A stretch of 64,000 nt of DNA from Streptomyces sp. V1I1 (GTDB lineage: Bacteria > Actinomycetota > Actinomycetes > Streptomycetales > Streptomycetaceae), in contig NZ_JAUSZH010000001.1 in assembly GCF_030817355.1 (NCBI RefSeq), forward strand, positions 3,404,501 through 3,468,500, read 5' to 3'. This document shows positions 2,730 through 16,931 of the stretch, piece after piece (position 1 is the first letter of the stretch; each line of letters opens with the position of its first letter). The position numbers and the translations under genes were made by a program. Below the pieces are notes generated by a model that was not told the origin of the DNA, searched no databases, and saw nothing but the letters and a program-made list of their open reading frames with translations.

Positions 2730-3962
2730 ATGCCCGAGCAGAGCCCGCTCGATCTGGCCGAGGGCGATCCCTTCGGCCCGCACAACCTGCCGTACGGCGT
2801 CTTCAGCACGGCCGACGAGCCCGGGCGCCGGCGGCTCGGCGTCCGCATCGGCAGCCATGTGCTCGACGCCGGAGCGGCCGCCCACACTCTCGGCTCCCCC
2901 TACGCGGCACTGCTGGCGCAGCCGAACCTCAACCCGCTTCTCGCGGCGGGCCGCACCGCCTGGCGGGACGTGCGCCGGGCGATCACCGCATGGGTCACCG
3001 TGCCCGCCCACCGGGCGGACATCGAGCCGCAGCTGCACCCGCTCGACTCGGTCACGCTGCACCTTCCGTACGAGGTCGCCGACTATGTCGACTTCTACGC
3101 GAGCGAGCACCACGCGACGAACGTCGGCAAGATCTTCCGGCCGGACGGGGACGCCCTGACCCCCAACTGGAAGCATCTGCCCATCGGTTACCACGGCCGG
3201 GCCGGGACGGTTGTCGTCTCCGGCACCGATGTGGTGCGCCCCAGCGGCCAGCGCAAGACCCCGGCCGACCCCGCGCCCCTGTTCGGACCGTCCGTGAAGC
3301 TCGACATCGAGGCCGAGGTCGGCTTCCTCGTCGGCACTCCCTCGGAGCTCGGCCGTCCGGTGCCCCTCGGGGACTTCCGGGAGCATGTCTTCGGTGTGAC
3401 GCTCCTCAACGACTGGTCGGCACGTGACATCCAGGCCTGGGAGTACGTTCCGCTCGGCCCGTTCCTCGGCAAGTCCTTCGCCACGTCCGTCTCCGCCTGG
3501 GTGACCCCGCTGGAGGCCCTCGACGCGGCCCGTACCGAGCCCCCCGCGCGGGACTTCGACCTGCTCCCCTACCTCGACGACTCCGGCGACGAGGAGCCCG
3601 GCGGCTTCGACCTGCGCATCACGGTGGCGATCAACGGCCATGTGGTCTCCGAGCCGCCGTTCGCCACGATGTACTGGACGGCCGCCCAGCAGCTGGCCCA
3701 TATGACGGTCAACGGCGCCTCGCTCCGTACGGGCGACCTCTTCGGCTCCGGCACGGTCAGCGGTCCCGAGGTCCACCAGCGCGGCTCGCTGCTGGAGCTC
3801 ACCTGGAACGGACGGGACGCTCTCGAACTTCCCGAGGGCAAGCGGACCTTCCTGGAGGACGGCGACGTGGTGACGATGACGGCCTGGGCACCAGGCCCGG
3901 ACGGCGTACGGGTCGGCCTCGGCGAGGTCACCGGCCGGATCGTGTCGAGCGCCGCGGAATGA
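2730..3962 (+). CDS. fahA: Fumarylacetoacetase
   Basis: Hydrolyses 4-fumarylacetoacetate to fumarate and acetoacetate, the last step of tyrosine/homogentisate catabolism. At 410 aa it has normal family length: a small N-terminal SH3-like domain (about 1-115) and the C-terminal FAH domain. Family motifs seen are VDFYASEHHA (residues 120-129), NWKHLPIGYHGRAG (146-159), the acidic pair E194/E196 and NDWSARDIQAWEY. The other homogentisate genes are not in the window. A hairpin of 7-bp arms (2691-2697 and 2703-2709, ACGTGTG/CACACGT) sits 20 bp before the start and could be an operator. The TGA stop overlaps the ATG of the next gene (ATGA), implying translational coupling. Confidence 0.93.
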   Translation: MPEQSPLDLAEGDPFGPHNLPYGVFSTADEPGRRRLGVRIGSHVLDAGAAAHTLGSPYAALLAQPNLNPLLAAGRTAWRDVRRAITAWVTVPAHRADIEPQLHPLDSVTLHLPYEVADYVDFYASEHHATNVGKIFRPDGDALTPNWKHLPIGYHGRAGTVVVSGTDVVRPSGQRKTPADPAPLFGPSVKLDIEAEVGFLVGTPSELGRPVPLGDFREHVFGVTLLNDWSARDIQAWEYVPLGPFLGKSFATSVSAWVTPLEALDAARTEPPARDFDLLPYLDDSGDEEPGGFDLRITVAINGHVVSEPPFATMYWTAAQQLAHMTVNGASLRTGDLFGSGTVSGPEVHQRGSLLELTWNGRDALELPEGKRTFLEDGDVVTMTAWAPGPDGVRVGLGEVTGRIVSSAAE

Positions 3963-4639: not shown

Positions 4640-4769
4640 CGCCCCAGGGGTGGCAGATCTTCCCGACTGATCAGCATCACCGCAGTTCAGCGGGGTGTCC
4701 CGGTGGCCGGTTCATGGCGCAACACTCTGGCAACACCACCGCCGACACAGCGTCGGTATGGTCCGAGGC

Positions 4770-5540
4770 ATGCCAGCCGAACGTACCCGCGAGCACACCG
4801 TGCCCCTCGCTGCCGCACGCCGGCGGCGGCTGCGCGCGGACCAGGCGCGGCAGCTCGCCGACCTGCTGCGCCACCAGGTGCGCACCGGCGGCTTCTCCGG
4901 CGGCGTGCTGCCGCTGGAGGGCACGATCGGCGACGACTACCGCGTCTCCCGCAACACCGTCCGACAGGCACTGGATCTGCTCCGTACGGAGGGGCTCGTC
5001 GAACGCCAGCCGGGCGTCGGCACGGTCGTGGTGTCCGAGAAGTACCCGCACGGCCTCGACCGGCTGCAGGGCCTCGCCGAGACCCTGCACGAACACGGCG
5101 ATGTCACCAACGAAGTCCGCACCGTCGGCCCGGTTTCCGCGCCCGCACCCGTGGCCCGGAGACTGGGCCTGCCCGAGCACACCGACGTGCTCTACATCGA
5201 GCGGCTGCGGCGGCTGAACGGCTTGCCCCTCTCGCTCGACCTCACCTACATCCCGATGGACATCGGCACCGGTCTGCTCGGCTGCGACCTGGAGCACACC
5301 GATGTGTTCCGGCTGCTCGAAAACCTCACCGGGCAGCCGCTGGGCACGGCCGAGATCACGCTGGAGGCCGTCAACGCCGACGCGCACTCCGCCGCCGTAC
5401 TCGAAGCCCCGCGCGGCGCCGCCGTGCTGATGCTCGAACGGCTCACGCATCTGTCCGACGGACGCCCCGTGGATCTGGAGTTCATCCGCTTCCGCGGCGA
5501 CCGCATCACCATGAGCGGGCTGCTCCACCGCTCCCTCTGA
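4770..5540 (+). CDS. GntR/HutC-family transcriptional regulator
   Basis: A 256-aa regulator with an N-terminal winged helix (about residues 22-90, recognition helix VSRNTVRQALDLL at 59-71) and a C-terminal UTRA ligand-binding domain (about 110-250) with the typical ending IRFRGDRITM. In-frame ATGs exist at 4695, 4758 and 4770. I prefer 4770, because the protein then begins close to the wHTH and a CGAGG-type ribosome site lies just upstream. It heads the ferredoxin-ABC-flavoprotein operon (40 bp to the next gene), so it probably senses the imported substrate or a product. No clear palindrome was seen in the 130 bp upstream. Confidence 0.88.
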   Translation: MPAERTREHTVPLAAARRRRLRADQARQLADLLRHQVRTGGFSGGVLPLEGTIGDDYRVSRNTVRQALDLLRTEGLVERQPGVGTVVVSEKYPHGLDRLQGLAETLHEHGDVTNEVRTVGPVSAPAPVARRLGLPEHTDVLYIERLRRLNGLPLSLDLTYIPMDIGTGLLGCDLEHTDVFRLLENLTGQPLGTAEITLEAVNADAHSAAVLEAPRGAAVLMLERLTHLSDGRPVDLEFIRFRGDRITMSGLLHRSL

Positions 5541-5580
5541 CCCGTCCCCGTACCCCCGTACCCCTTTCCCGGAGACAGCC

Positions 5581-5808
5581 ATGCCTCTTGCGCCCCAGCG
5601 TGCCGACGTGCCCGTGACCATCGACGAGTCGAAGTGCATCGACGGCTGCACCCTCTGCGTCGACATGTGCCCGCTCGACTCCCTCGCGATCAACCCGGAC
5701 AGCGGCAAGGCCTATATGCACGTGGACGAGTGCTGGTACTGCGGCCCGTGCGCGGCCCGGTGTCCCACGGACGCGGTCACGGTCAACATGCCCTATCTGC
5801 TGCGGTAA
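5581..5808 (+). CDS. Two-cluster 4Fe-4S ferredoxin, AprB-like
   Basis: A 75-aa iron-sulfur protein with two classical cluster motifs, CIDGCTLCVDMCP and CWYCGPCAARCP, each giving Cys-x2/3-Cys-x2-Cys-x3-Cys-Pro. Spacing and the CW.C..C...CP..A second motif resemble the beta subunit of adenylylsulfate reductase (AprB), but without AprB's C-terminal tail. A GGAGA ribosome site precedes the ATG. It sits in one operon with an AprA-like flavoprotein (9011-11701), so the two probably form a flavin/Fe-S oxidoreductase, with this subunit carrying electrons to or from FAD. The natural electron partner is unknown. Confidence 0.88.
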   Translation: MPLAPQRADVPVTIDESKCIDGCTLCVDMCPLDSLAINPDSGKAYMHVDECWYCGPCAARCPTDAVTVNMPYLLR

Positions 5809-5830
5809 AGCCCGAGAGGTCCGAACTCCC

Positions 5831-7180
5831 ATGTCACGCAAGCCAGTTGTGCTCCTCGCCGCCACCCTGCTGCTACCGCTCACCGGCTGCGGCGGCGACG
5901 CGGAGGCGGGCGACGGCTCGACCGTCACCGTCACCGTCGGCTACCAGTCCAAGACCATCAACACCGTCACGGCGGGCACGCTGCTGCGGTCGCTCGGCTA
6001 CTTCGAGCGGGAGCTCGCGGCCCGCGGCAAACGTGAGGGCGTCACCTACAAGGTGAAGTGGCAGGACTACGCCACCGGCGCGCCGATCACCGCGCAGATG
6101 ACCGCCGGGAAGATCGACATCGGTTCGATGGGCGACTTCCCGCTGCTGATCAACGCCACGCGCGGCAAGCAGCTGCACCGGCCGACGCGGCTCGTCTCCG
6201 TCACCGGCTACAACCTGCGCGGCGGCCTCAACACCATTGTCACGGCGCCCGGTTCGAAGCTGTCCTCGCTGAAGGACCTGCGCGGCAAGAAGGTCTCCAC
6301 GAGTGTCGGATCGGCCGCGGACGGCACGCTCGTACGGGCGCTGCAACGGGCGGACATCGACCCGGAGAAGGACATCCGCAAGCTCAACCAGCAGCCGGCC
6401 GTGGGTGCGTCGGCGCTCCAGGCGGGCAGCACCGACGCGCTCTCGCAGTTCGTTGCCTGGCCCGGGCTGCTCGCCTTCCAGGGCAAGGCGCAGGCGCTGT
6501 ACGACGGGGCGGAGCTGAACCTGCCGACCTTCCACGGGGTCACCGCGCGCGAGGACTTCGCGAAGAAGCGGCCCGCGGTGCTCGAAGACTTCCTGCGCGC
6601 GCAGGCCGATGCGACCGAGTATCTGCGCAAGCAGCCGGTCGCGGCCGCGGAGTCGGTGGCCAAGGCGACCGGGCTCCCGGCCGAGGTCGTCTACCTCTAC
6701 AACGGCGCGCACGGCATCGCGACCTTCGGGCCGGCCCTCAAGCCCGAGCTGGTCGACGCGTTGAAGAAGGACGTGCCGGTGCTCAAGTCGGCGAAGCTGG
6801 TGGGCGATGTGGATGTGGACGCCTTCGTCGACGACCAGTATGTGAAGCGGGCGTACGGGAACGGCTATGCCAAGGCGCTCACGGCCGCGCCCGCGCCCGC
6901 GCGCAGCGAGCTGTGGCTGAAGGGCAAGAACACGACCCAGTCCTTCGCGACCCCGGTCGAGCTGCTGCGGCAGGTGGCCGCGGCTCCTGGACAGGTGCGC
7001 GCGGCGTATGTCCCCGACGCCACCACCGGCACGCGCTGGTTCGCGGACAAGGCGGTGTGGGTGGCCGACGGCACGAAGCTGCTGCCCTTCGTCACCCGGT
7101 CCGCGGTTGCGGCCTACGTGACGGGACACGCGGGCGCCCGGACCGTGTCGTACGCCGAGGCCTTGAAGCAGGTGTCATGA
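5831..7180 (+). CDS. ABC transporter substrate-binding lipoprotein (sulfonate/nitrate/taurine class)
   Basis: A 449-aa extracytoplasmic solute receptor. The signal peptide ends in a lipobox, LLPLTGC, with Cys20 as the lipidated residue. The mature part has the NMT1/SsuA-like fold: TVGYQSKTINTV at the start of lobe 1, DIGSMGDFPLLINA, and LRGKKVSTSVGSAADGTLVRAL lining the binding cleft. It is about 100 residues longer than most SsuA/TauA proteins, with an extra C-terminal segment from about residue 350. It is followed by its permease with an ATGA overlap. Ligand class by family is sulfonate, nitrate, taurine or a pyrimidine-like anion; the sequence does not decide. Confidence 0.88.
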   Translation: MSRKPVVLLAATLLLPLTGCGGDAEAGDGSTVTVTVGYQSKTINTVTAGTLLRSLGYFERELAARGKREGVTYKVKWQDYATGAPITAQMTAGKIDIGSMGDFPLLINATRGKQLHRPTRLVSVTGYNLRGGLNTIVTAPGSKLSSLKDLRGKKVSTSVGSAADGTLVRALQRADIDPEKDIRKLNQQPAVGASALQAGSTDALSQFVAWPGLLAFQGKAQALYDGAELNLPTFHGVTAREDFAKKRPAVLEDFLRAQADATEYLRKQPVAAAESVAKATGLPAEVVYLYNGAHGIATFGPALKPELVDALKKDVPVLKSAKLVGDVDVDAFVDDQYVKRAYGNGYAKALTAAPAPARSELWLKGKNTTQSFATPVELLRQVAAAPGQVRAAYVPDATTGTRWFADKAVWVADGTKLLPFVTRSAVAAYVTGHAGARTVSYAEALKQVS

Positions 7181-8163
7181 CCGGCCGGCACGTCGTGCGC
7201 GCGCTGTCCCTGCTGGGCGCGCTCGGGGTGTGGCAGCTGCTGACCGCCTACGACATCAATCTTTGGCTGCGGTTCGAGCAGTTCCCCACGGTCGTCGATG
7301 TCGCGCGGGAGTTCGGGGAGCGGGTCGGGAGCGGCCCGTACTGGCAGGACCTGACCGACAGCCTCACCCGCATCGCCACCGGCTTCACGCTGGCGGCGCT
7401 CGCGGGCGTGGCGGTCGGCACCGCGATCGCCCGCTCCCGCCTGGCGGCGGACCTGCTCGGGCCGGTGCTCGAAGTCCTCCGCCCGATCCCGGCGATCGCG
7501 CTGGTACCGGTCGCGATCCTGCTCTTCCCCAGCAACGAGCAGGGCATCGTCTTCATCACCTTCACCGCGGCGTTCTTCCCGATCATGGTCTCCACGCGCC
7601 ATGCCGTGCGCGCCCTGACCCCGGTCTGGGAAGAGGCCGTCCTCACGATGGGCGGCGGCCGGTGGCGGATTCTGGCGTCTGTGGTCCTGCCGGGGGCACT
7701 GCCGGGGATCCTCGGCGGTCTCTCGGTGGGGATCGGCGTCTCGTGGATCTGCGTGATCTCGGCGGAGATGATCTCCGGTGAGTACGGGGTGGGTTACCGC
7801 ACCTGGCAGGACTACACGGTGGTGGACTACCCCGGCGTGTTCGTGGGCATGGCGACGATCGGCGTTCTGGGCTGGCTGACGTCGACGACGGTGGAGCTGG
7901 CGGGGCGCCGGGTGACGAGGTGGCTCCCGCGGGTGGAGTCTGGGCCACCGGTCCGCCGCCCGAGGGTTTCCCCTACCCCGCCCCTTCCCGTACCTGGGGG
8001 CAGGCCCCCAGGCCCCGCGTCTCAAACGCCGGCGAGGCTTGATTCGGGGCTCCGCCCCGGACCCCGCTCCTCAATCGCCGGACGGGCTGAATTTTCAGCC
8101 CGTCCGGCGATTGAGGACTGGGGGTCTGGGGGCGAAGCCCCCAGTTCGGGAGGGGGCGGGTAG
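7177..8163 (+). CDS. ABC transporter permease (SsuC/TauC type) with repeat-derived C-terminal tail
   Basis: Inner-membrane permease of the importer encoded by its neighbours. The family domain (binding-protein-dependent transport) covers about residues 1-250, with roughly six membrane segments and the EAA loop, here EEAVLTMGGGRWRILASVVL, that docks the ATPase. The start ATG at 7177 overlaps the stop of the binding protein. Homology ends near residue 252 (RRVTRWLPR, about 7932). The remaining 75 or so residues are proline/glycine-rich and are encoded by a stack of GC-rich inverted repeats (7975-8165) of the kind found between Streptomyces genes. The tail is therefore probably an accidental extension, or the true stop was displaced by repeat insertion. 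Confidence 0.85.
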   Translation: MTGRHVVRALSLLGALGVWQLLTAYDINLWLRFEQFPTVVDVAREFGERVGSGPYWQDLTDSLTRIATGFTLAALAGVAVGTAIARSRLAADLLGPVLEVLRPIPAIALVPVAILLFPSNEQGIVFITFTAAFFPIMVSTRHAVRALTPVWEEAVLTMGGGRWRILASVVLPGALPGILGGLSVGIGVSWICVISAEMISGEYGVGYRTWQDYTVVDYPGVFVGMATIGVLGWLTSTTVELAGRRVTRWLPRVESGPPVRRPRVSPTPPLPVPGGRPPGPASQTPARLDSGLRPGPRSSIAGRAEFSARPAIEDWGSGGEAPSSGGGG

Positions 8164-8165
8164 GG
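7975..8165. repeat. Stack of Streptomyces-type intergenic palindromes
   Basis: Three adjoining inverted-repeat modules: CCTGGGGGCAGGCCCCCAGG near 7991-8010; a perfect 23-bp inverted repeat with arms 8068-8090 and 8095-8117; and CTGGGGGCGAAGCCCCCAG near 8124-8142. Core words of the long arm (GCCCGTCCGGCGATTGAGGA) are, to my knowledge, widely scattered in Streptomyces intergenic DNA. Here the stack lies inside the open reading frame of the permease and directly before the ATPase gene, so its RNA hairpins could also attenuate or stabilise the operon mRNA. Confidence 0.85.
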
Positions 8166-8227
8166 GAAGCCCGCCGCAGGCGCCCCCCACCCACACCCCA
8201 TCCGCACCCACGAGGAGGCGTAATCGC

Positions 8228-8998
8228 ATGACCACACCCCCCGAAACCACCCTCGCCCCCACCCCGGCACCGCCCCGTGGGACCCGGCTCACCCTGCGCG
8301 GTGCGTCACTGGGGCGGCCCGGAGCGCCCGTGCTCGACGGGATCGACCTGGAGGTCGTGCCCGGCGAGATCCTGACCGTCGTCGGGCCCTCCGGGTGCGG
8401 CAAGTCGACCCTCCTGCGGACCCTCGCCGGGCTGCTCCCCCCGCTCGACGGCGCGGTCGCGCAGGACGGTGAGCCCATCACCGCGCCCAGCGCCGAGCGG
8501 GCACTGATCTTCCAGGAAGACGCCCTCCTTCCCTGGCGCACCCTGCGCGGCAACGTCGAACTCCCCCTGGCCATCAGGGGAGTCGGCCGCGCCGAGCGAC
8601 GTCGGCGGGCCGAGGCATGGCTGGACCGGGTCGGGCTCGCCGACCGGGCCGCCCACCTCCCGCACCGCGTCTCCGGCGGGCAACGCCAGCGCGTCCAGCT
8701 CGCGCGCGCCCTAGCCGCCGAGCCGCGGGCCGTCCTCATGGACGAGCCCTTCGGCGCGCTCGACGCGCAGACCCGCGCCGGGATGCAGCAGCTGCTCGTC
8801 GACGTGCTGCGCGGCACCGGCGCGACGGTCGTCTTCGTCACGCACGACGTCGACGAGGCGCTCTTCCTCGGCGACCGCATCGCCCTCCTCGGCACCGGGC
8901 GCGTCCTCGAGGTACCCCGCCCCCGCGACCGTGCGGCCCACGGCGAACCCGCGACCCTCGCGCTGCGCCGCGAAGTACTCGAATCCCTCGGCACCTGA
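8228..8998 (+). CDS. ABC transporter ATP-binding protein (SsuB/TauB type)
   Basis: A 256-aa ATPase energising the importer. All motifs are present: Walker A GPSGCGKST (residues 53-61), Q-loop IFQEDALLPW, signature VSGGQRQRVQLARAL, Walker B AVLMDEPF, and H-loop VFVTHDVDEA. The ATG at 8228 is preceded by GAGGAGG about ten bases upstream, so translation is probably independent of the permease despite the repeat block between them. The AprA-like flavoprotein follows after 12 bp. Confidence 0.92.
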   Translation: MTTPPETTLAPTPAPPRGTRLTLRGASLGRPGAPVLDGIDLEVVPGEILTVVGPSGCGKSTLLRTLAGLLPPLDGAVAQDGEPITAPSAERALIFQEDALLPWRTLRGNVELPLAIRGVGRAERRRRAEAWLDRVGLADRAAHLPHRVSGGQRQRVQLARALAAEPRAVLMDEPFGALDAQTRAGMQQLLVDVLRGTGATVVFVTHDVDEALFLGDRIALLGTGRVLEVPRPRDRAAHGEPATLALRREVLESLGT

Positions 8999-9010
8999 GA
9001 GGCCCTCCCC

Positions 9011-11701
9011 ATGGAAATCCCCGCACTCGCGGACGCCGAGGAGCTCTCCTGCGACGTCCTCGTCATCGGTGGCGGCACCGCCGGCACCATGGCCGCGCTC
9101 ACCGCGGCCGAGCACGGCGCGAACGTCCTGCTCCTCGAAAAGGCGCACGTCCGCCACTCCGGCGCGCTCGCCATGGGCATGGACGGCGTCAACAACGCCG
9201 TCATCCCCGGCCGCGCCGAACCCGACGACTACGTCGCCGAGATCACCCGCGCCAACGACGGCATCGTCGACCAGTCCACCGTCCGCCAGACCGCGACCCG
9301 CGGCTTCTCGATGGTGCAGCGTCTCGAGTCGTACGGCGTGAAGTTCGAGAAGGACGAACACGGCGAGTACGCGGTCCGCCAGGTGCACCGCTCCGGCTCG
9401 TACGTCCTGCCGATGCCCGAGGGCAAGGACGTCAAAAAGGTCCTCTACCGGCGGCTGCGGCGGCGCGAAATGCGCGAGCGCATCCGGATCGAGAACCGCG
9501 TGATGCCGGTCCGGGTCCTCACGGCGGACGGCCGGGCCGTCGGGGCCACGGGCTTCAACACCCGTACGGGACAGTTCGTCTCCGTCCGCGCGGGCGCGGT
9601 GATCCTTGCCACCGGCGCCTGCGGCCGGCTCGGCCTCCCCGCCTCCGGCTATCTCTACGGCACGTACGAGAACCCCACCAACGCCGGTGACGGCTACGCC
9701 ATGGCCTACCACGCCGGCGCCGACCTCACCGGCATCGAGTGCTTCCAGATCAACCCGCTGATCAAGGACTACAACGGCCCCGCCTGCGCCTATGTCGCCA
9801 ATCCCTTCGGCGGCTACCAGGTCAACCGGCACGGCGAGCGTTTCGTCGACTCCGACTACTGGTCCGGTCAGATGATGGCCGAGTTCGCCGCCGAACTCGC
9901 CTCCGACCGCGGCCCGGTCTATCTCAAGCTCAGTCATCTCCCCGAGGAGTCCATCAACGCGCTGGAGGGCATCCTGCACTCCACCGAACGCCCCACCCGC
10001 GGCACCTTCCACGCGAACCGCGGCCACGACTACCGCACCCACGACGTCGAGATGCACATCTCGGAGATCGGGCTGTGCGGCGGCCACTCCGCCTCGGGCG
10101 TACGCGTCGACGACCACGCCCGCACCACCGTCCCCGGCCTCTACGCCGCCGGTGACCTGGCCTGCGTCCCGCACAACTACATGATCGGCGCGTTCGTCTT
10201 CGGCGATCTGGCGGGCGCGGACGCCGCCCGGTTCACCGCGTACGAAGGTGAGTTGCCCGCCGACCAGCTGCGCGACGCCCATGAACTGATCTACCGGCCG
10301 CTGCGCAACCCGGACGGACCGCCGCAGCCCCAGGTCGAGTACAAACTCCGCCGTTTCGTGAACGACTATGTCGCCCCGCCCAAGTCCGGCGCCCGTCTCT
10401 CCCTCGCCGTCGAACACTTCGAGCGGATGCGCGACGAGATCGCGGAGATGGGCGCGCAGACCCCGCACGAGCTGATGCGCTGCGCCGAGGTCAGCTTCAT
10501 CCGCGACTGCGCCGAGATGGCCGCCCGCTCCTCGCTCGCCCGCACGGAGTCCCGCTGGGGCCTCTACCACGAGCGTACGGATCACCCGCAGCGCGACGAC
10601 GAGGACTGGCTGCACCACCTGGACCTGCGTAAATCACCCTCAGGGGCGATGGAGTTCACCGCCAGGCCCGTCGCCCCCTACCTCGTCCCCATCGAGGAGT
10701 ACGCCCCGACCGGCGGCGCATCGCGCCATCTCGGCGAGATCCATCCGGAGCAGGTCTCCACCGCCGGACACCGCGACGTCGCCCCCATCGGCTCCGGCGT
10801 CCGCACCGCGGTCCGTCAGGACGCGACCGCCGCCTCCCACTCCCCTCGCATCCTGGAGCTGCTCAGCCTCACCGAGGACGAGCCGGAACTCCCCCGGCTG
10901 CGCCCCTTCTTGACCGACCCGGACCCCGCCGTGCGCCGCGCCGCACTCGCCGCGCTCACCGAGACCGTCCCGGCAGGCACCGGACCGGCGCTCGCGGCGG
11001 CCCTCGCGGACCCGGACGGTGGCGTCCGCACCGCCGCCGCGGCGTCCCTGCGCGAACTGGTCGAAGTCCTGCCCCCGGAGGCCGACTTGTCCCGGAGCCT
11101 CACCGACGCGCTCGGCAACGACGACCCCCAGGTCCGGGCCGCCGCGCTCGACACACTGCGCGCCCTGCGCCTGGGCGACGCCGCCGCCTACGCCCGTACG
11201 CTCGACGATCCGGACATCGAGGTCCGCATCGCGGCCGTGCGCGCCCTGGTCTCGGTCGACGCCCTCGCCGCCGTCGCCCGCGCCACCGCCGACCCGGCCC
11301 GCGAGGTCCGCGTCACGGTGGCGCGCAGTCTGACCGACCCGGGCGCCCTGGAACCCCTGATCCAGGACCCGGACATCCTCGTCCGCGCGGCCGCCCTCGC
11401 GGCCCTGTCCACTGCCGGGTGCCCCGCCCCGTTCGGCACCGTCGCCGTCACCGCACTGGCCGACCCGGCCTGGCAGGTTCGCGCGGGCGCGGCCACGGCC
11501 CTCGGCGCTGCCGCCCCGGGGTTGGCGGTTCCGCCCCTGGCCAAGGCCCTCCAGGACCCGAACGCCGACGTCCGCAAGGCCGCGGTCCTGGCTCTGCTGA
11601 AACACCCCGCCGACACGGAGGCCCGGGCCGCCCTGGCCACGGCGGTCCAGGACACGGACGCGGACGTGCGCGCGTACGCGGGGCGGGTCAACGCCGCCTG
11701 A
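9011..11701 (+). CDS. AprA-like FAD-dependent oxidoreductase fused to C-terminal HEAT repeats
   Basis: An 896-aa fusion. Residues 1 to about 560 form a flavoprotein of the fumarate reductase/succinate dehydrogenase/adenylylsulfate reductase superfamily. It has the FAD-binding DVLVIGGGTAGT (15-26) and EK ending beta-2 (43-44). HSGALAMGMDGVNNAVIPG aligns with the AprA stretch SGAVAQGLSAIN, so it looks closer to AprA than to SdhA (I see no HRLGGNSL motif). The second FAD motif is TTVPGLYAAGDLA. From about residue 610 to the end run 8-9 HEAT/PBS-lyase-like repeats (recurring DPD..VR.AA..AL). The usual AprA C-terminus is absent. With the di-cluster ferredoxin of the same operon it should form a two-subunit flavo-iron-sulfur enzyme. 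The reaction is unknown; APS reduction is not implied, because no sat or dsr genes are present. Confidence 0.85.
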   Translation: MEIPALADAEELSCDVLVIGGGTAGTMAALTAAEHGANVLLLEKAHVRHSGALAMGMDGVNNAVIPGRAEPDDYVAEITRANDGIVDQSTVRQTATRGFSMVQRLESYGVKFEKDEHGEYAVRQVHRSGSYVLPMPEGKDVKKVLYRRLRRREMRERIRIENRVMPVRVLTADGRAVGATGFNTRTGQFVSVRAGAVILATGACGRLGLPASGYLYGTYENPTNAGDGYAMAYHAGADLTGIECFQINPLIKDYNGPACAYVANPFGGYQVNRHGERFVDSDYWSGQMMAEFAAELASDRGPVYLKLSHLPEESINALEGILHSTERPTRGTFHANRGHDYRTHDVEMHISEIGLCGGHSASGVRVDDHARTTVPGLYAAGDLACVPHNYMIGAFVFGDLAGADAARFTAYEGELPADQLRDAHELIYRPLRNPDGPPQPQVEYKLRRFVNDYVAPPKSGARLSLAVEHFERMRDEIAEMGAQTPHELMRCAEVSFIRDCAEMAARSSLARTESRWGLYHERTDHPQRDDEDWLHHLDLRKSPSGAMEFTARPVAPYLVPIEEYAPTGGASRHLGEIHPEQVSTAGHRDVAPIGSGVRTAVRQDATAASHSPRILELLSLTEDEPELPRLRPFLTDPDPAVRRAALAALTETVPAGTGPALAAALADPDGGVRTAAAASLRELVEVLPPEADLSRSLTDALGNDDPQVRAAALDTLRALRLGDAAAYARTLDDPDIEVRIAAVRALVSVDALAAVARATADPAREVRVTVARSLTDPGALEPLIQDPDILVRAAALAALSTAGCPAPFGTVAVTALADPAWQVRAGAATALGAAAPGLAVPPLAKALQDPNADVRKAAVLALLKHPADTEARAALATAVQDTDADVRAYAGRVNAA

Positions 11702-11767: not shown

Positions 11768-13417
11768 TCAGCGCACGAACACGCTCGCCTGGCTCGCCAG
11801 GTCCAGGAAGTACTGCGGGGCCACGCCCAGCACCAGCGTCACCGCCACACCCACGGCGATCGTGGTCATCGTCAGCGGCGAAGGCACCGCCACCGTGGGG
11901 CCCTCCGCCTTCGGCTCGCTGAAGAACATCAGCACGATGACCCGGATGTAGAAGAACGCGGCGATCGCCGACGAGATCACACCGACCACGACCAGCGCGC
12001 CCGCGCCGCCCTCCGCCGCCGCCTTGAAGACCGCGAACTTCCCGGAGAAGCCCGACGTCAGCGGAATGCCGGCGAAGGCCAGCAGGAACACCGCGAAGAC
12101 CGCCGCCACCAGCGGCGAACGCCGCCCGAGCCCCGCCCACTTGGACAGATGCGTCGCCTCGCCGCCCGCGTCGCGCACGAGCGTGACCACGGCGAACGCG
12201 CCGATCGTCACAAAGGAGTACGCGGCAAGGTAGAAGAGGACGGACGAGATGCCGTCGGGCGTCGTCGCGATGACACCGGCCAGGATGAATCCGGCGTGCG
12301 CGATCGAGGAGTACGCAAGGAGCCGCTTGATGTCGGTCTGCGTGATCGCGACGATCGCACCGCCCAGCATGGTGACGATCGCGATCGCCCACATGACCGG
12401 CCGCCAGTCCCAGCGCAGCCCCGGCAGCACGACGTACAGCAGGCGCAGCAGCGCGCCGAACGCGGCCACCTTCGTCGCCGCCGCCATGAAGCCGGTGACC
12501 GGAGTCGGCGCGCCCTGGTAGACGTCCGGTGTCCACATGTGGAACGGCACCGCGCCGACCTTGAACAGCAGCCCCATCAGGATCATCGCGCCGCCGATCA
12601 GCAGCAGCGCGTCGTTCCCCATGGTGTCGGCGAGCGCCGGGTCGATGGTGCGCACGCTGCCGTCGACGACGTCCGCGATCCTCGCGTACGACACCGAGCC
12701 CGCGTACCCGTACAGCAGGGCGATCCCGAACAGCAGGAACGCCGACGAGAAGGCTCCCAGCAGGAAGTACTTCACCGCCGCCTCCTGCGACATCAGCCGC
12801 TTGCGGCGGGCGACGGCACACAGGAGATAGAGCGGGAGCGAGAAGACTTCCAGCGCGATGAAGAGCGTCAGGAGATCGTTGGCGGCCGGGAAGACCAGCA
12901 TGCCGGTGATCGCGAAGAGCACCAGCGGGAAGACCTCGGTGGTGGTGAACCCGGCCTTGACCGCGGCCTTTTCGCTGTCGCTGCCGGGTACGGACGCGGC
13001 CTGCGCGGCGAACGAGTCGACGCGGTTGCCGTGCACCTCCGGGTCGAGGCGGCGCTCGGCGAAGGTGAAGACCGCGACCAGCGAGGCCAGCAGGATGGTG
13101 CCCTGCAGGAAGAGCGCCGGGCCGTCGACCGCGATCGCGCCCATCGCCGCGATCTTCGCCTTGGTGGTGCCGTATCCGCCGGCCGCGAGAGCGACGACCG
13201 CCGCGAAAGCGGCCACGAGGGCGACGACGGTCAGGAACACCTGGACGTGGTAACGGACCTTGCGTGGAACGAATGCCTCCACGAGCACACCCACGATGGC
13301 GGCGCCGACGACGATCAGCGCCGGTGCCAGCTGGGCGTACTCGACAGTCGGAGCCGGGATCTTGTCGATCGGCTCGGCTGCCGTTGTCCACAGGCTGTGG
13401 ACAGCTGTAGCGCTCAC
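11768..13417 (-). CDS. nuoN: NADH-quinone oxidoreductase subunit N
   Basis: A 549-aa antiporter-like membrane subunit of complex I and last gene of the nuo operon. About 14 hydrophobic segments are visible. The proton-channel region shows LFIALEVFSLPLYLL (conserved Glu) and later a Lys in the KVGAVPFHMWTPDVYQGAP loop typical of NuoN/L/M. An N-terminal block before the first helix is Streptomyces-like. The GTG start at 13417 overlaps the nuoM stop (GTGA). Downstream is the perfect palindromic terminator at 11712-11762. Confidence 0.95.
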   Translation of the reverse strand: MSATAVHSLWTTAAEPIDKIPAPTVEYAQLAPALIVVGAAIVGVLVEAFVPRKVRYHVQVFLTVVALVAAFAAVVALAAGGYGTTKAKIAAMGAIAVDGPALFLQGTILLASLVAVFTFAERRLDPEVHGNRVDSFAAQAASVPGSDSEKAAVKAGFTTTEVFPLVLFAITGMLVFPAANDLLTLFIALEVFSLPLYLLCAVARRKRLMSQEAAVKYFLLGAFSSAFLLFGIALLYGYAGSVSYARIADVVDGSVRTIDPALADTMGNDALLLIGGAMILMGLLFKVGAVPFHMWTPDVYQGAPTPVTGFMAAATKVAAFGALLRLLYVVLPGLRWDWRPVMWAIAIVTMLGGAIVAITQTDIKRLLAYSSIAHAGFILAGVIATTPDGISSVLFYLAAYSFVTIGAFAVVTLVRDAGGEATHLSKWAGLGRRSPLVAAVFAVFLLAFAGIPLTSGFSGKFAVFKAAAEGGAGALVVVGVISSAIAAFFYIRVIVLMFFSEPKAEGPTVAVPSPLTMTTIAVGVAVTLVLGVAPQYFLDLASQASVFVR

Positions 13418-14985
13418 TTGGCCGCCTCCACCTCGGGCTTGGGGTCCTTCTTCTGTACGTCGGACATCGTGTGCTCCACCGCCGGGTTGACGATGTCCGT
13501 CAGCGGCTTCGGGAAGACGCCGAGGAAGAGCAGCAGCGCGATCAGCGGAGCGACCACGGCCAGCTCACGGACCCTGAGGTCGGGCATCTCCCGCACCTCG
13601 GCCTTCACCGGGCCCGTCATCGTCCGCTGGTAGAGGACGAGGGTGTAGAGCGCGGCGAGCACAATGCCGAAGGTGGCGATGATTCCGGCCACCGGATAGC
13701 GCGAGTATGTGCCGACCAGGACCAGGAATTCGCTCACGAAGGGCGCGAGACCCGGCAGCGAGAGCGTGGCCAGACCGCCGATCAGGAAGGTGCCGGCGAG
13801 TACCGGGGCGACCTTCTGCACCCCGCCGTAGTCCGCGATGAGCCGCGAGCCGCGCCGGGAGATCAGGAACCCGGCCACCAGCATCAGCGCGGCCGTCGAG
13901 ATCCCGTGGTTGACCATGTAGAGCGTCGCGCCCGACTGCCCCTGGGACGTCATCGCGAAGATGCCCAGGATGATGAAGCCGAAGTGCGAGATCGAGGCGT
14001 ACGCGACAAGGCGCTTGATGTCGCGCTGGCCGACCGCGAGCAGCGCGCCGTAGACGATGCTGATCAGCGCGAGCACCAGGATCACGGGCGTGGCCCACTT
14101 GGAGGCGTCCGGGAAGAGCTGGAGGCAGAAACGCAGCATCGCGAACGTGCCGACCTTGTCGACGACCGCGGTGATCAGCACGGCGACCGGCGCGGTCGCC
14201 TCACCCATGGCGTTGGGCAGCCAGGTGTGCAGCGGCCACAGCGGCGCCTTCACCGCGAAGGCGAAGAAGAAGCCGAGGAACAGCAGCCGCTCGGTGTTGG
14301 TCGCCATGTCGAGCGTCCCGGACGCGCGCGCCTCGGCGATCTCGTTGAGCGAGAAGCTGCCCGCGACGACGTAGAGCCCGATGACCGCGGCCAGCATGAT
14401 CAGGCCGCCGACCAGGTTGTAGAGCAGGAACTTCACGGCCGCGTACGAGCGTTGGGCCGCGGCGTTCTCGTCGCTGCCCGCGTGGGCACGGTCCCCGAAG
14501 CCGCCGATGAGGAAGTACATCGGGATGAGCATGGCTTCGAACAGGATGTAGAAGAGGAAGACGTCGGTGGCCTCGAAGGAGAGGATCACCATCGCCTCGA
14601 CGGCGAGGATCAGGGCGAAGAAGCCCTGCGTCGGCCGCCACCGCGACGACTTCGTCTCCAGAGGGTCGGCGTCGTGCCAGCCCGCCAGGATGACGAACGG
14701 GATCAGCAGCGCGGTCAGCGCCAGCAGCGCCACCCCGATGCCGTCCACGCCCAGTTCGTACCGGACGCCGAAGTCCTTGATCCAGGCGTGCGACTCGGTC
14801 AGCTGATAGCGGTCGCCGCCGGGCTCGAAGCGTACGAGCACGATCGCGGCCAGCACCAGCGTGCCGAGCGAGACCAGCAGCGCCAGCCACTTGGCGGCGG
14901 TGCGCCGCGCGGCCGGGACGGCGGCGGTGGCGATCGCGCCGACCGCCGGGAGTGCCGCCGTCACCGTAAGGAGAGGGAACGACAT
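13414..14985 (-). CDS. nuoM: NADH-quinone oxidoreductase subunit M
   Basis: A 523-aa antiporter-like proton-pumping subunit. It shows VDGIGVALLALTALLIPFVILAG, FFALILAVEAMVILSFEATDVFLFYILFEAMLIPMYFLIGG (the conserved channel glutamate lies in the FYILFEA helix) and KAPLWPLHTWLPNAMGEAT with the conserved Lys. ATG at 14985 (MSFPLLTVTAALP) is the first credible start after the nuoL stop, 5 bp away. The final 15 residues are charged and followed by the nuoN overlap. Confidence 0.95.
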   Translation of the reverse strand: MSFPLLTVTAALPAVGAIATAAVPAARRTAAKWLALLVSLGTLVLAAIVLVRFEPGGDRYQLTESHAWIKDFGVRYELGVDGIGVALLALTALLIPFVILAGWHDADPLETKSSRWRPTQGFFALILAVEAMVILSFEATDVFLFYILFEAMLIPMYFLIGGFGDRAHAGSDENAAAQRSYAAVKFLLYNLVGGLIMLAAVIGLYVVAGSFSLNEIAEARASGTLDMATNTERLLFLGFFFAFAVKAPLWPLHTWLPNAMGEATAPVAVLITAVVDKVGTFAMLRFCLQLFPDASKWATPVILVLALISIVYGALLAVGQRDIKRLVAYASISHFGFIILGIFAMTSQGQSGATLYMVNHGISTAALMLVAGFLISRRGSRLIADYGGVQKVAPVLAGTFLIGGLATLSLPGLAPFVSEFLVLVGTYSRYPVAGIIATFGIVLAALYTLVLYQRTMTGPVKAEVREMPDLRVRELAVVAPLIALLLFLGVFPKPLTDIVNPAVEHTMSDVQKKDPKPEVEAAK

Positions 14986-14990
14986 AACAG

Positions 14991-16931
14991 TTACACCGCC
15001 CTCATCAGCAGGGTCGCGGCGATCAGCACCGCCGTACCTCCGAACATCGAGACCGCGTAGGTGCGGGCGTAGCCGTTCTGCAGCTTGCGCAGCCGGCCGG
15101 AGAGCCCGCCGAACGAGGCGGCCGTGCCGTTGACCACGCCGTCGACCAGGGTGTGGTCGACGTAAACCAGGGAGCGGGTGAGGTGCTCGCCGCCGCGGAC
15201 CAGGACCACATGGTTGAAGTCGTCCTGGAGGAGATCGCGGCGGGCGGCCCGGGTGAGCAGACTCCCTCGCGGGGCGACCACGGGAACCGGGCGCCGCCCG
15301 TACTGGGCGTAGGCGATGCCCAGGCCGATGACGAGAGCGACGACCGTTGCCGAAGTCACCGCCGTCGCGCTGATGGGCGGATGCCCGTGCTCGAAGTTCG
15401 TGACGGGCTTCAGCCAGTTCACGAACGCGTCGTTGAGACTGAACAGGCCTCCGGCGAAGACGGACCCGAAGGCGAGCACCACCATGGGGATGGTCATCGA
15501 CTTCGGCGACTCGTGCGGATGCGGCATCTCGCCGACGTGCACCTCGATGCCGGGCTCGACGCTCGGCACCGTGTCCGGGTCGGGGGCGGGCTGCCAGCGC
15601 TTCTCGCCGAAGAACGTCAGCAGCATCACGCGCGTCATGTAGTACGCGGTGATCGCGGCGCCCAGCAGCGCCGTACAACCGAGGATCCAGCCCTCCGTCC
15701 CGCCCTTGGCGAAGGCCGCCTCGATGATCTTGTCCTTGGAGAAGAAGCCGGACAGACCGGGGAAGCCGATGATCGCCAGATAGCCGAGTCCGAAGGTGAC
15801 GAAGGTGATCGGCATGTACTTCCGCAGGCCGCCGTACTTGCGCATGTCGACCTCGTCGTTCATGCCGTGCATCACCGAGCCCGCGCCGAGGAACAGCCCG
15901 GCCTTGAAGAAGCCGTGCGTCACCAGGTGCATGATCGCGAAGGCGTATCCGATCGGGCCGAGGCCGGCCGCGAGGATCATGTAGCCGATCTGCGACATCG
16001 TCGAACCGGCCAGCGCCTTCTTGATGTCGTCCTTCGCGCAACCGACGATGGCACCGAAGATCAGCGTCACCGCGCCGACGACCGCGACCGCCAACTGCGC
16101 GTCCGGGGCCGCGTTGAAGATCGCCCCGGACCGGGTGATGAGGTAGACGCCCGCGGTCACCATGGTCGCCGCGTGGATCAGGGCCGAGACCGGAGTCGGA
16201 CCCTCCATCGCGTCCCCGAGCCAGGACTGCAGCGGCACCTGTGCGGACTTGCCGCACGCCGCGAGCAGCAGCATCAGCCCGATGGCCGTCAGCTTGCCCT
16301 CGCTCGTCTCACCGGTCGCCTCCAGCACAGGCCCGAAGGCGAACGTCCCGAAGGTGGTGAACATCAGCATGATCGCGATCGACAGACCCATGTCGCCGAC
16401 GCGGTTGACCAGGAATGCCTTCTTCGCCGCCGTCGCCGCGCTGGGCTTGTGCTGCCAGAAGCCGATCAGCAGGTACGAGGCGAGGCCGACGCCCTCCCAG
16501 CCGACGTACAGCAGGAGGTAGTTGTCCGCGAGGACCAGCAGCAGCATCGCCGCGAGGAAGAGGTTCAGATAGCCGAAGAAGCGGCGGCGGCGCGGATCGT
16601 GCTCCATGTACCCGATCGAGTACACATGGATCAGCGAGCCGACGCCCGTGATCAGCAGGACGAACGTCATCGACAGCTGGTCGAGCTGGAAGGCCACGTC
16701 AGCCTGGAAGCCCTCGACGGGAATCCAGCTGAACAGCCTCTGGGACAGGGCGCGTTCATCCGCCCCCTTGCCCAGCATGTCCACGAACAGCACCGCGCCG
16801 ACCACGAAGGACGCGGCCGCGAACAGCGTGCCGATCCAGTGGCCGCTGCGGTCGAGCCGCCGCCCGCCGCACAGCAGGACCGCCGCTCCGAGCAAAGGCG
16901 CCGCGACAAGCAGCGCAATCAGGTTCTCCAC
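14991..16931 (-). CDS. nuoL: NADH-quinone oxidoreductase subunit L
   Basis: A 646-aa subunit, the largest antiporter-like membrane subunit, which also carries the lateral amphipathic helix in its C-terminal part. Diagnostic stretches are [40 protein letters not shown], and [32 protein letters not shown] soluble insert of about 40 residues with several acidic and His residues (from about residue 450) precedes the C-terminal helices. The gaps to nuoK (14 bp) and nuoM (5 bp) show it is inside the operon. Confidence 0.95.

Follow-up and report, generated by a model that had tools for sequence, protein, structure and literature searches.

An operon of Streptomyces joining a relative of APS reductase to a sulfonate-type importer: a putative organosulfur scavenging system

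The DNA stretch analysed here (the window, 64,000 nucleotides) spans positions 3,404,501 to 3,468,500 of contig NZ_JAUSZH010000001.1 of Streptomyces sp. V1I1, and carries at 4770..11701 six genes for a GntR-type regulator, a small ferredoxin, the three parts of an ATP-binding cassette (ABC) importer and a large flavoprotein related to AprA, a subunit of adenylyl-sulfate (APS) reductase. All six are present, on one strand and tightly spaced, and form a real operon, as the original prediction, made by reading the sequence, had proposed. The system is a real and conserved variant of the asf kind of sulfonate gene cluster, in which the enzyme belongs to the APS-reductase side of the flavoprotein family. 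Sulfur scavenging is its probable role, and a sulfonate-like substrate is slightly favoured. The fuller reading, a system scavenging organosulfur compounds, most likely organosulfonates, through a putative sulfite release dependent on flavin adenine dinucleotide (FAD) and iron-sulfur clusters, is given an even chance, and direct release of sulfite by the flavoprotein itself is plausible, if a little short of that. Much of the sulfur in soil is present as organosulfonates, according to the available part of PMC4267179, which names release routes that use oxygenases. A conserved relative of APS reductase that Streptomyces, pseudomonads, rhizobia and cyanobacteria encode together with an importer would add an unassigned enzyme to this cycle.

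All genes of the operon lie on the forward strand. The first (4770..5540) encodes the GntR/UTRA regulator, of HutC type (Pfam PF00392 and PF07702), and is followed by those for a 75-residue di-[4Fe-4S] ferredoxin, likely the electron-transfer (beta) subunit (5581..5808; Fer4_7, 41.4 bits), a lipoprotein substrate-binding protein with an NMT1/SsuA/TauA fold and a C-terminal extension (5831..7180; SsuA_fam, 129 bits; lipobox LTGC read from the sequence), the ABC permease (7177..8163; BPD_transp_1, 63.8 bits) and the ABC ATPase (8228..8998; ABC_tran, 107.5 bits). The flavoprotein gene closes the set (9011..11701; FAD_binding_2, Succ_DH_flav_C and HEAT); its FAD part, related to AprA and to 3'-phosphoadenosine 5'-phosphosulfate (PAPS) reductase, occupies 9011..10720, and a C-terminal HEAT-repeat solenoid (residues about 612-895; HEAT_2, five stretches) occupies 10844..11695. 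The intergenic distances are 40, 22, -4, 64 and 12 bp, the negative value being the overlap of the binding-protein and permease genes, and such tight packing on a single strand makes one transcript likely. Upstream of the regulator gene, the block ATGGCGCAACACTCTGGCAACACCAC (4714..4739, forward strand), with two GCAACAC units 11 bp apart, and a -10-like TATGGT read on the same strand just 5' of the start codon (4757..4762) may serve as the operator and promoter of the operon. Allowing for some base changes, the block can be recognised ahead of the GntR gene in 14 of 14 genus sequences aligned, where TATGGT was identical or a near variant; genome-wide, the pattern marked a single site at up to three mismatches, and its reversed control none.

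As determined by stop codons, the order GntR, ferredoxin, binding protein, permease, ATPase, flavoprotein was identical in all 20 actinobacterial 20-kb stretches. The FAD part was matched in 51 of 150 genomes of the genus, the own genome included (E <= 1e-100; two matches partial), in 12 of 396 genomes drawn from the phylum (E <= 1e-120) and, at the latter threshold, in none of 14 control genomes. Because of this constant order and the recurrence across genus and phylum, the operon is not a chance assembly. In one genus genome (G128:C2:6931615-6932403) the match to the FAD part is confined to residues 2-262, at 94% identity and inside an 871-residue open frame, which may reflect a frameshift or a recombinant gene.

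The whole flavoprotein is a member of NCBIfam family NF010374/PRK13800 (1629.8 bits, cut-off 1196), and its FAD part belongs to NF006131/PRK08275 (863.2 bits, cut-off 587), names that carry no tested function; the one paper listed for these accessions concerns mycorrhizal fungi. Outside its own family the nearest models are adenylyl-sulfate reductase PRK06854 (273.3 bits against a cut-off of 557), then TfrA (160 bits) and succinate dehydrogenase (SDH; 153 bits), all scoring below cut-off. The nearest solved chain by sequence is the alpha subunit of PAPS reductase, 8a8o (3.9e-55), followed by Archaeoglobus AprA. The AlphaFold model, with a mean predicted local distance difference test (pLDDT) score of 76.7, shows a low-confidence linker (556-609) and then a confident helical HEAT solenoid; Foldseek placed it nearest to 8a8o_A (E 2.4e-26), with 1jnr and 2fja next and chains of SDH and fumarate reductase (FRD) ranking after them. 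In a phylogenetic tree the 16 family rows formed one clade (support 100/99), and together with AprA and PAPS reductase they were split from SDH, the L-aspartate oxidase NadB and candidate AsfA proteins (support 99/98), so that the grouping with FRD or NadB for which the original prediction had proposed a phylogenetic check was not seen. A smaller tree lacking the AsfA rows gave three groups only, placement being beyond its reach. The flavoprotein is a clade of its own, nearest to PAPS and APS reductases by sequence and fold and outside that family.

Residue comparisons over 116 members (the window and 115 loci) define what this clade has kept and lost. Asn74 and His398 of AprA, which we take to lie near the flavin, are retained in every member and correspond to Asn61 and His359 of the window flavoprotein. 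Also without exception, Trp234 is replaced by Tyr, Arg265 by Leu, Gly274 by Cys, Glu141 by Lys or Arg and Gln145 by His or Arg; Leu278 has become Thr, Ala or Gly, and Arg317 falls in a gap, with Glu opposite it in a smaller alignment, so that this column is unsafe. Glu141, Trp234 and Arg265 are presumably APS-site residues, the last two near the flavin. In all members, moreover, Lys120, Arg121 and Ser122 of the Methanothermococcus thermolithotrophicus PAPS reductase (MtPAPSR) are replaced by Val, His and His or Arg, respectively; the available text of PMC10322725 assigns these three to the PAPS pocket and Gln145 to the APS site. As far as the alignments tell, the family has retained the two residues on the flavin side but lacks most marks of the nucleotide pocket and of the dicarboxylate pocket. 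The flavoprotein is AprA-related and not an AprA because the APS residues are replaced, and it remains under the AprA cut-off (TIGR02061, 131.1 bits against 641.75). At 227 positions, at least 98% of the members share the same residue, many of these positions lying in motifs of the family's own such as YENP, QxNPLIKDYNGPACAY and RPxRG.

These data bear on two other ways of reading the enzyme. That the enzyme is an APS or PAPS reductase of the sulfate assimilation route, as the identity of the nearest solved relatives would suggest, is very improbable, since Lys120 and Arg121 of MtPAPSR and Gln145, Glu141 and Arg265 of AprA are lost, the importer would be left without a role, and the genome has its own homologue of the thioredoxin-type reductase (219.2 bits, just under the cut-off of 235.3). 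A dehydrogenase or reductase acting in the manner of SDH, FRD or NadB on a sulfur-free, dicarboxylate-like organic anion would agree with the shared superfamily, with the NCBI label (fumarate reductase/succinate dehydrogenase flavoprotein) and with the His found opposite E. coli SdhA His354 in 113 of 116 members. It is nonetheless unlikely: SdhA His242 is Asn in all 116, Arg286 and Arg399 fall in gaps in all 116 (which depend on the alignment), and the scores are far below the cut-offs for SDH/FRD (TIGR01812, 152.9 bits against 567.3) and NadB (121.5 against 452.75); the fold of the binding protein and the sulfur-gene neighbours of relatives, described below, also speak against it. The roles of these four SdhA residues are our assumption. 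Since most of the fumarate reductase/succinate dehydrogenase residues checked are not there, the database name is put in doubt. Membership of AprA, PAPS reductase or SDH/FRD/NadB was in each case rejected on residues and scores.

The ferredoxin has eight Cys residues and an ECWxC motif in 116 of 116 members, which sets a Trp beside a cluster Cys in all of them, as in AprB. The AprB-like spacing attributed to it in the original prediction is thus a fair description, if a weak match in score: the aprB model gives 31 bits (cut-off 135.65), under several generic ferredoxin models, and the AprB C-terminal tail is absent, the 75-residue protein ending in PYLLR. By analogy, the conserved Trp may be the counterpart of MtPAPSR Trp42, for which the available part of PMC10322725 reports a proposed action in electron transfer. 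AprBA and the operon pair share Asn74/His398 and a di-[4Fe-4S] partner with Trp beside the cluster Cys, and differ in that AprBA has the AprB tail and its own APS-site residues, while the actinobacterial flavoprotein carries the HEAT fusion. The term "AprBA-like pair" used in the original prediction accordingly holds for kinship (8a8o and AprA nearest; tree) and not for the APS site. MtPAPSR likewise combines a flavoprotein with a di-cluster ferredoxin, its PAPS-pocket residues being those replaced in the window family, and we know of no dedicated importer for it.

The importer may point to the substrate class. The binding protein (449 residues, NMT1/SsuA-like) has 49 invariant columns among 16 partners of the flavoprotein from three phyla, cyanobacterial and proteobacterial ones included. 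Its structural model (pLDDT 81.6) retrieved TauA or SsuA chains, from four distinct proteins, at Foldseek ranks 1-8, with thiamine-precursor, DszB, bicarbonate and nitrate proteins ranking behind. The match to curated families is below cut-off for SsuA_fam (129 bits against 163.5) and TauA (77.5 against 304.25), as also for the permease, with nitrate/sulfonate permeases as nearest NCBIfam models, and for the ATPase, for which the taurine ATPase is best (225.4 bits against 357). The operon importer therefore resembles SsuABC and TauABC in binding-protein fold and in ATPase and permease class, and departs from them in a binding protein that scores under the family cut-offs and bears a C-terminal extension.

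Beyond Actinobacteria, the flavoprotein-ferredoxin pair recurs in Proteobacteria and Cyanobacteria, where HEAT is encoded by a separate gene and the same importer is often present. The FAD part was detected by tblastn in 51 records of a plasmid collection, including Paraburkholderia, rhizobia, Acinetobacter, Methylobacterium, Acidithiobacillus caldus and Cyanobacteria, and five pattern matches in viral contigs gave no confirmed case. In 15 annotated plasmid neighbourhoods the ferredoxin was present in 15 and a separate HEAT gene in 14, Tsukamurella having the fusion instead. A full importer of the system's type was present in 12; the exceptions have binding proteins only (L034), ATPase and permease only (L037) or a different ABC set about 7 kb distant (L036). 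Further relatives were sampled as the best 80 of at least 589 loci encoding one; judged by record titles, all 80 are beta- or gammaproteobacterial, which follows from the first row being one from Cupriavidus. These have the ferredoxin in 80, GntR in 78, a separate HEAT gene in 77 and DUF971 in 66. From these locus counts, flavoprotein, ferredoxin and HEAT emerge as the core, usually joined outside Actinobacteria by DUF971 (PF06155) or Mrp/NBP35 (PF10609) proteins. Gene order was counted in the 77 complete loci (L059, L071 and L120 being too short), and in 52 of them all three genes of the system's own importer lie between those for ferredoxin and HEAT. The importer is thus a common yet separable partner of the core, and the dedicated importer of the original prediction stands for Actinobacteria, where the ABC genes are conserved, and not as a general rule. 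On the Nostoc plasmid pNe_5 (L034, 9992-16147), five extra genes (two HAD hydrolases, a methyltransferase, GNAT and VOC) separate flavoprotein from ferredoxin, and no permease or ATPase was seen in that stretch.

The neighbours of some of these relatives include sulfur genes. Of eight nearby other binding proteins scanned with hidden Markov models, seven exceeded the cut-offs of SsuA_fam (L092, L099, L103) or TauA (L094, L117, L122, L126), with L123 under both. A family 2A encapsulin gene lies within about 10 kb in 7 of the 80 loci (L081, L087, L092, L106, L122, L124, L126), which belong to Paraburkholderia, Caballeronia, a Burkholderiales bin and Acinetobacter and represent about five arrangements; serine acetyltransferase occurs in six (the same loci minus L124), and cysteine desulfurase-like genes in those six and in L057. 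A subset of 50 from the 80 genomes (mean size 7.0 Mb, about 22 kb read per locus) has 24 copies of encapsulin and 51 of TauA, for which about 0.07 and 0.16 occurrences beside the flavoprotein would be expected by chance, compared with 7 seen and 4 matched, respectively. We presume that this encapsulin family is the one already placed in sulfur metabolism in the literature. In its available part, that account (PMC8049743) describes a family 2A-type encapsulin as involved in sulfur metabolism and makes no mention of the flavoprotein operon, and the link between the operon and a sulfur nanocompartment is new to us. Together with the TauA/SsuA folds and the SsuA/TauA neighbours, these sulfur genes have strengthened the initial guess of a sulfonate substrate. 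A reductive direction would fit the arrangement in Methylobacterium radiotolerans, where the genes for FdxA and a ferredoxin-NADP reductase come after those of the ABC importer. On plasmid pTcM1 of Acidithiobacillus caldus (L037, 10102-14035), HEAT is followed by FdxA and a 1153-residue protein with Pyr_redox_2 as its sole match, possible candidates for an electron donor.

Exporter-type genes, in turn, raise the idea that the enzyme works in reverse, detoxifying sulfite left by other desulfonation systems with the exporters as partners. TauE/SafE or YeiH genes adjoin 3 of the 15 annotated plasmid neighbourhoods: TauE/SafE and YeiH-type genes in Pseudanabaena and Leptolyngbya (the YeiH of the latter scoring 196.7 against a cut-off of 232.6) and TauE/SafE in Aquabacterium. 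Dissimilatory APS reductases are moreover reversible, whereas the reverse reaction of MtPAPSR was not measurable, according to the available text of PMC10322725. As a sulfonate-type importer makes little sense in such a role and the nucleotide-site residues of AprA are replaced, sulfite detoxification is quite improbable.

Contrary to the belief behind the original prediction that no characterised system has this composition, the asfRABC cluster of Pseudomonas putida S-313 comprises a binding protein, an ABC transporter, a reductase and ferredoxin (AsfA/AsfB) and a LysR regulator, and is required for aromatic but not aliphatic sulfonates (PMC4267179, available part). Both systems combine a flavoprotein or reductase and a ferredoxin with a sulfonate-type ABC importer, and thus have the same architecture; the regulator is of LysR type (AsfR) in asf and GntR/UTRA in the window. 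The available part of PMC2864759 places asfRAB on the megaplasmid of C. metallidurans CH34, with NuoF as Rmet_4300, a pyridine-nucleotide oxidoreductase as Rmet_4310 and AsfA/AsfB as Rmet_4334/5. This megaplasmid has no member of the window flavoprotein family (best 83 bits). It carries one other pair, an FAD_binding_2 flavoprotein with a ferredoxin of the di-cluster kind, next to an SsuA-type cassette, so that AsfA probably belongs to a family different from that of the window protein. The pair (L131, 7882-9863) is by its position probably AsfAB: a Pyr_redox_2 open reading frame lies 8 called genes beyond a NuoF-like one (read by eye), and the pair 30-31 called genes beyond the latter, compared with 34-35 expected from the numbering (gene calling being rough), with the ferredoxin first by coordinate whereas the paper's available text lists AsfA first. 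The probable AsfA (L131:8214-9863) is 29% identical to the window flavoprotein over 416 residues, as far as this positional assignment goes, and the tree puts it on the side of SDH, away from the clade of the window protein; no HEAT domain was seen in it, unlike the HEAT-fused window protein, and the probable AsfB lacks the ECWxC motif of the window ferredoxin. If the CH34 assignment holds, the system works like asf and is not asf, because the architecture is the same and the flavoprotein only 29% identical; that the operon is asf itself is unlikely. The CH34 pair is unannotated in PLSDB. The 120 best relatives of the CH34 flavoprotein, which bear names like FAD-dependent oxidoreductase, come often from Bradyrhizobium and Azospirillum and include cyanobacterial ones.

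Since AsfA/AsfB are read in the literature as an electron-transfer chain (PMC4267179 and PMC2864759, in their available parts), the window flavoprotein and ferredoxin could likewise feed electrons to an oxygenase, SsuD-like or other, without cleaving the substrate themselves. NtaA-type monooxygenase genes near 5 of the 80 loci and on plasmid locus L035 would suit such a chain. No oxygenase, however, belongs to the conserved gene set scored, and the retention of an FRD/AprA-type catalytic fold, with the 227 highly conserved residues, seems more than a shuttle would need, which makes a pure electron chain rather unlikely. The system makes it testable whether flavin/Fe-S pairs such as AsfAB feed electrons only or cleave the sulfonate.

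From the gene set and its conservation, the family placement, the residue pattern, the sulfur-gene neighbours of some relatives and the sulfonate-binder fold, we infer a model of sulfonate scavenging that extends to the assembly of a complex, the reductive sense of the reaction, its product sulfite, the class of substrate and the regulation. The lipoprotein and ABC proteins would take up an anionic organosulfur compound, and flavoprotein and ferredoxin would assemble in the cytoplasm as an AprBA/PAPSR-like complex, with electrons passing through the two clusters and the conserved Trp to FAD. Reduced FAD would then attack the substrate sulfur and free sulfite, which would enter the normal assimilatory route, represented in this genome by the thioredoxin-type reductase homologue just under its cut-off. 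The HEAT repeats may serve assembly or docking, the DUF971/Mrp proteins outside Actinobacteria may supply clusters, and repression by the GntR/UTRA protein would be lifted by a ligand or by sulfur shortage. As a tentative extension, which we hold to be possible though doubtful, the family may add a third function to the APS-reductase clade, that of a putative oxygen-independent Fe-S/FAD reductive desulfonase (or S-X lyase) with which aerobes free sulfite from imported organosulfonates for assimilation, and in whose pocket other, conserved residues have taken the place of the adenylate-binding ones. In that case AsfAB of aromatic desulfonation, so far read as electron donor, may also be the catalyst.

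Several points weigh against the scavenging model or its enzymology. The sulfur-gene queries used gave no match in the 20 actinobacterial stretches, and the sulfur link for the window therefore rests on homology; the importer is absent from its place in 25 of the 77 complete beta/gammaproteobacterial loci. The neighbour families were picked after being seen and the loci are not independent, so that the chance figures serve as a guide. With Arg265 and Trp234 replaced in all members, the chemistry may differ from that of AprA. D. gigas AprA ranked only tenth in Foldseek, behind several SDH and FRD chains, the pocket segments of the flavoprotein model have pLDDT below 50, and 4 of the 27 rows in the model's alignment are PAPSR-like, which may favour the ranking of 8a8o first. 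Finally, long branches were flagged by the tree program, and the tree is taken as support rather than proof.

No description of the flavoprotein family or system was found in the open-licence literature, subscription papers lying outside that search, and the available part of an R. qingshengii proteome paper does not mention it. After the operon of Paraburkholderia largidicola (L046, 15616-19659) come genes for an LLM oxidoreductase, a class II aldolase, a 3-mercaptopropionate dioxygenase and a rhodanese-related protein. In the window, the operon is preceded at 2730-3962 by what we take to be a fumarylacetoacetase-like gene (Fah) and followed at 11768-16257 by presumed nuo genes; Fah and/or NuoN adjoin it in 10 of 13 other genus stretches, and in the remaining 3 it is the operon that lies elsewhere.

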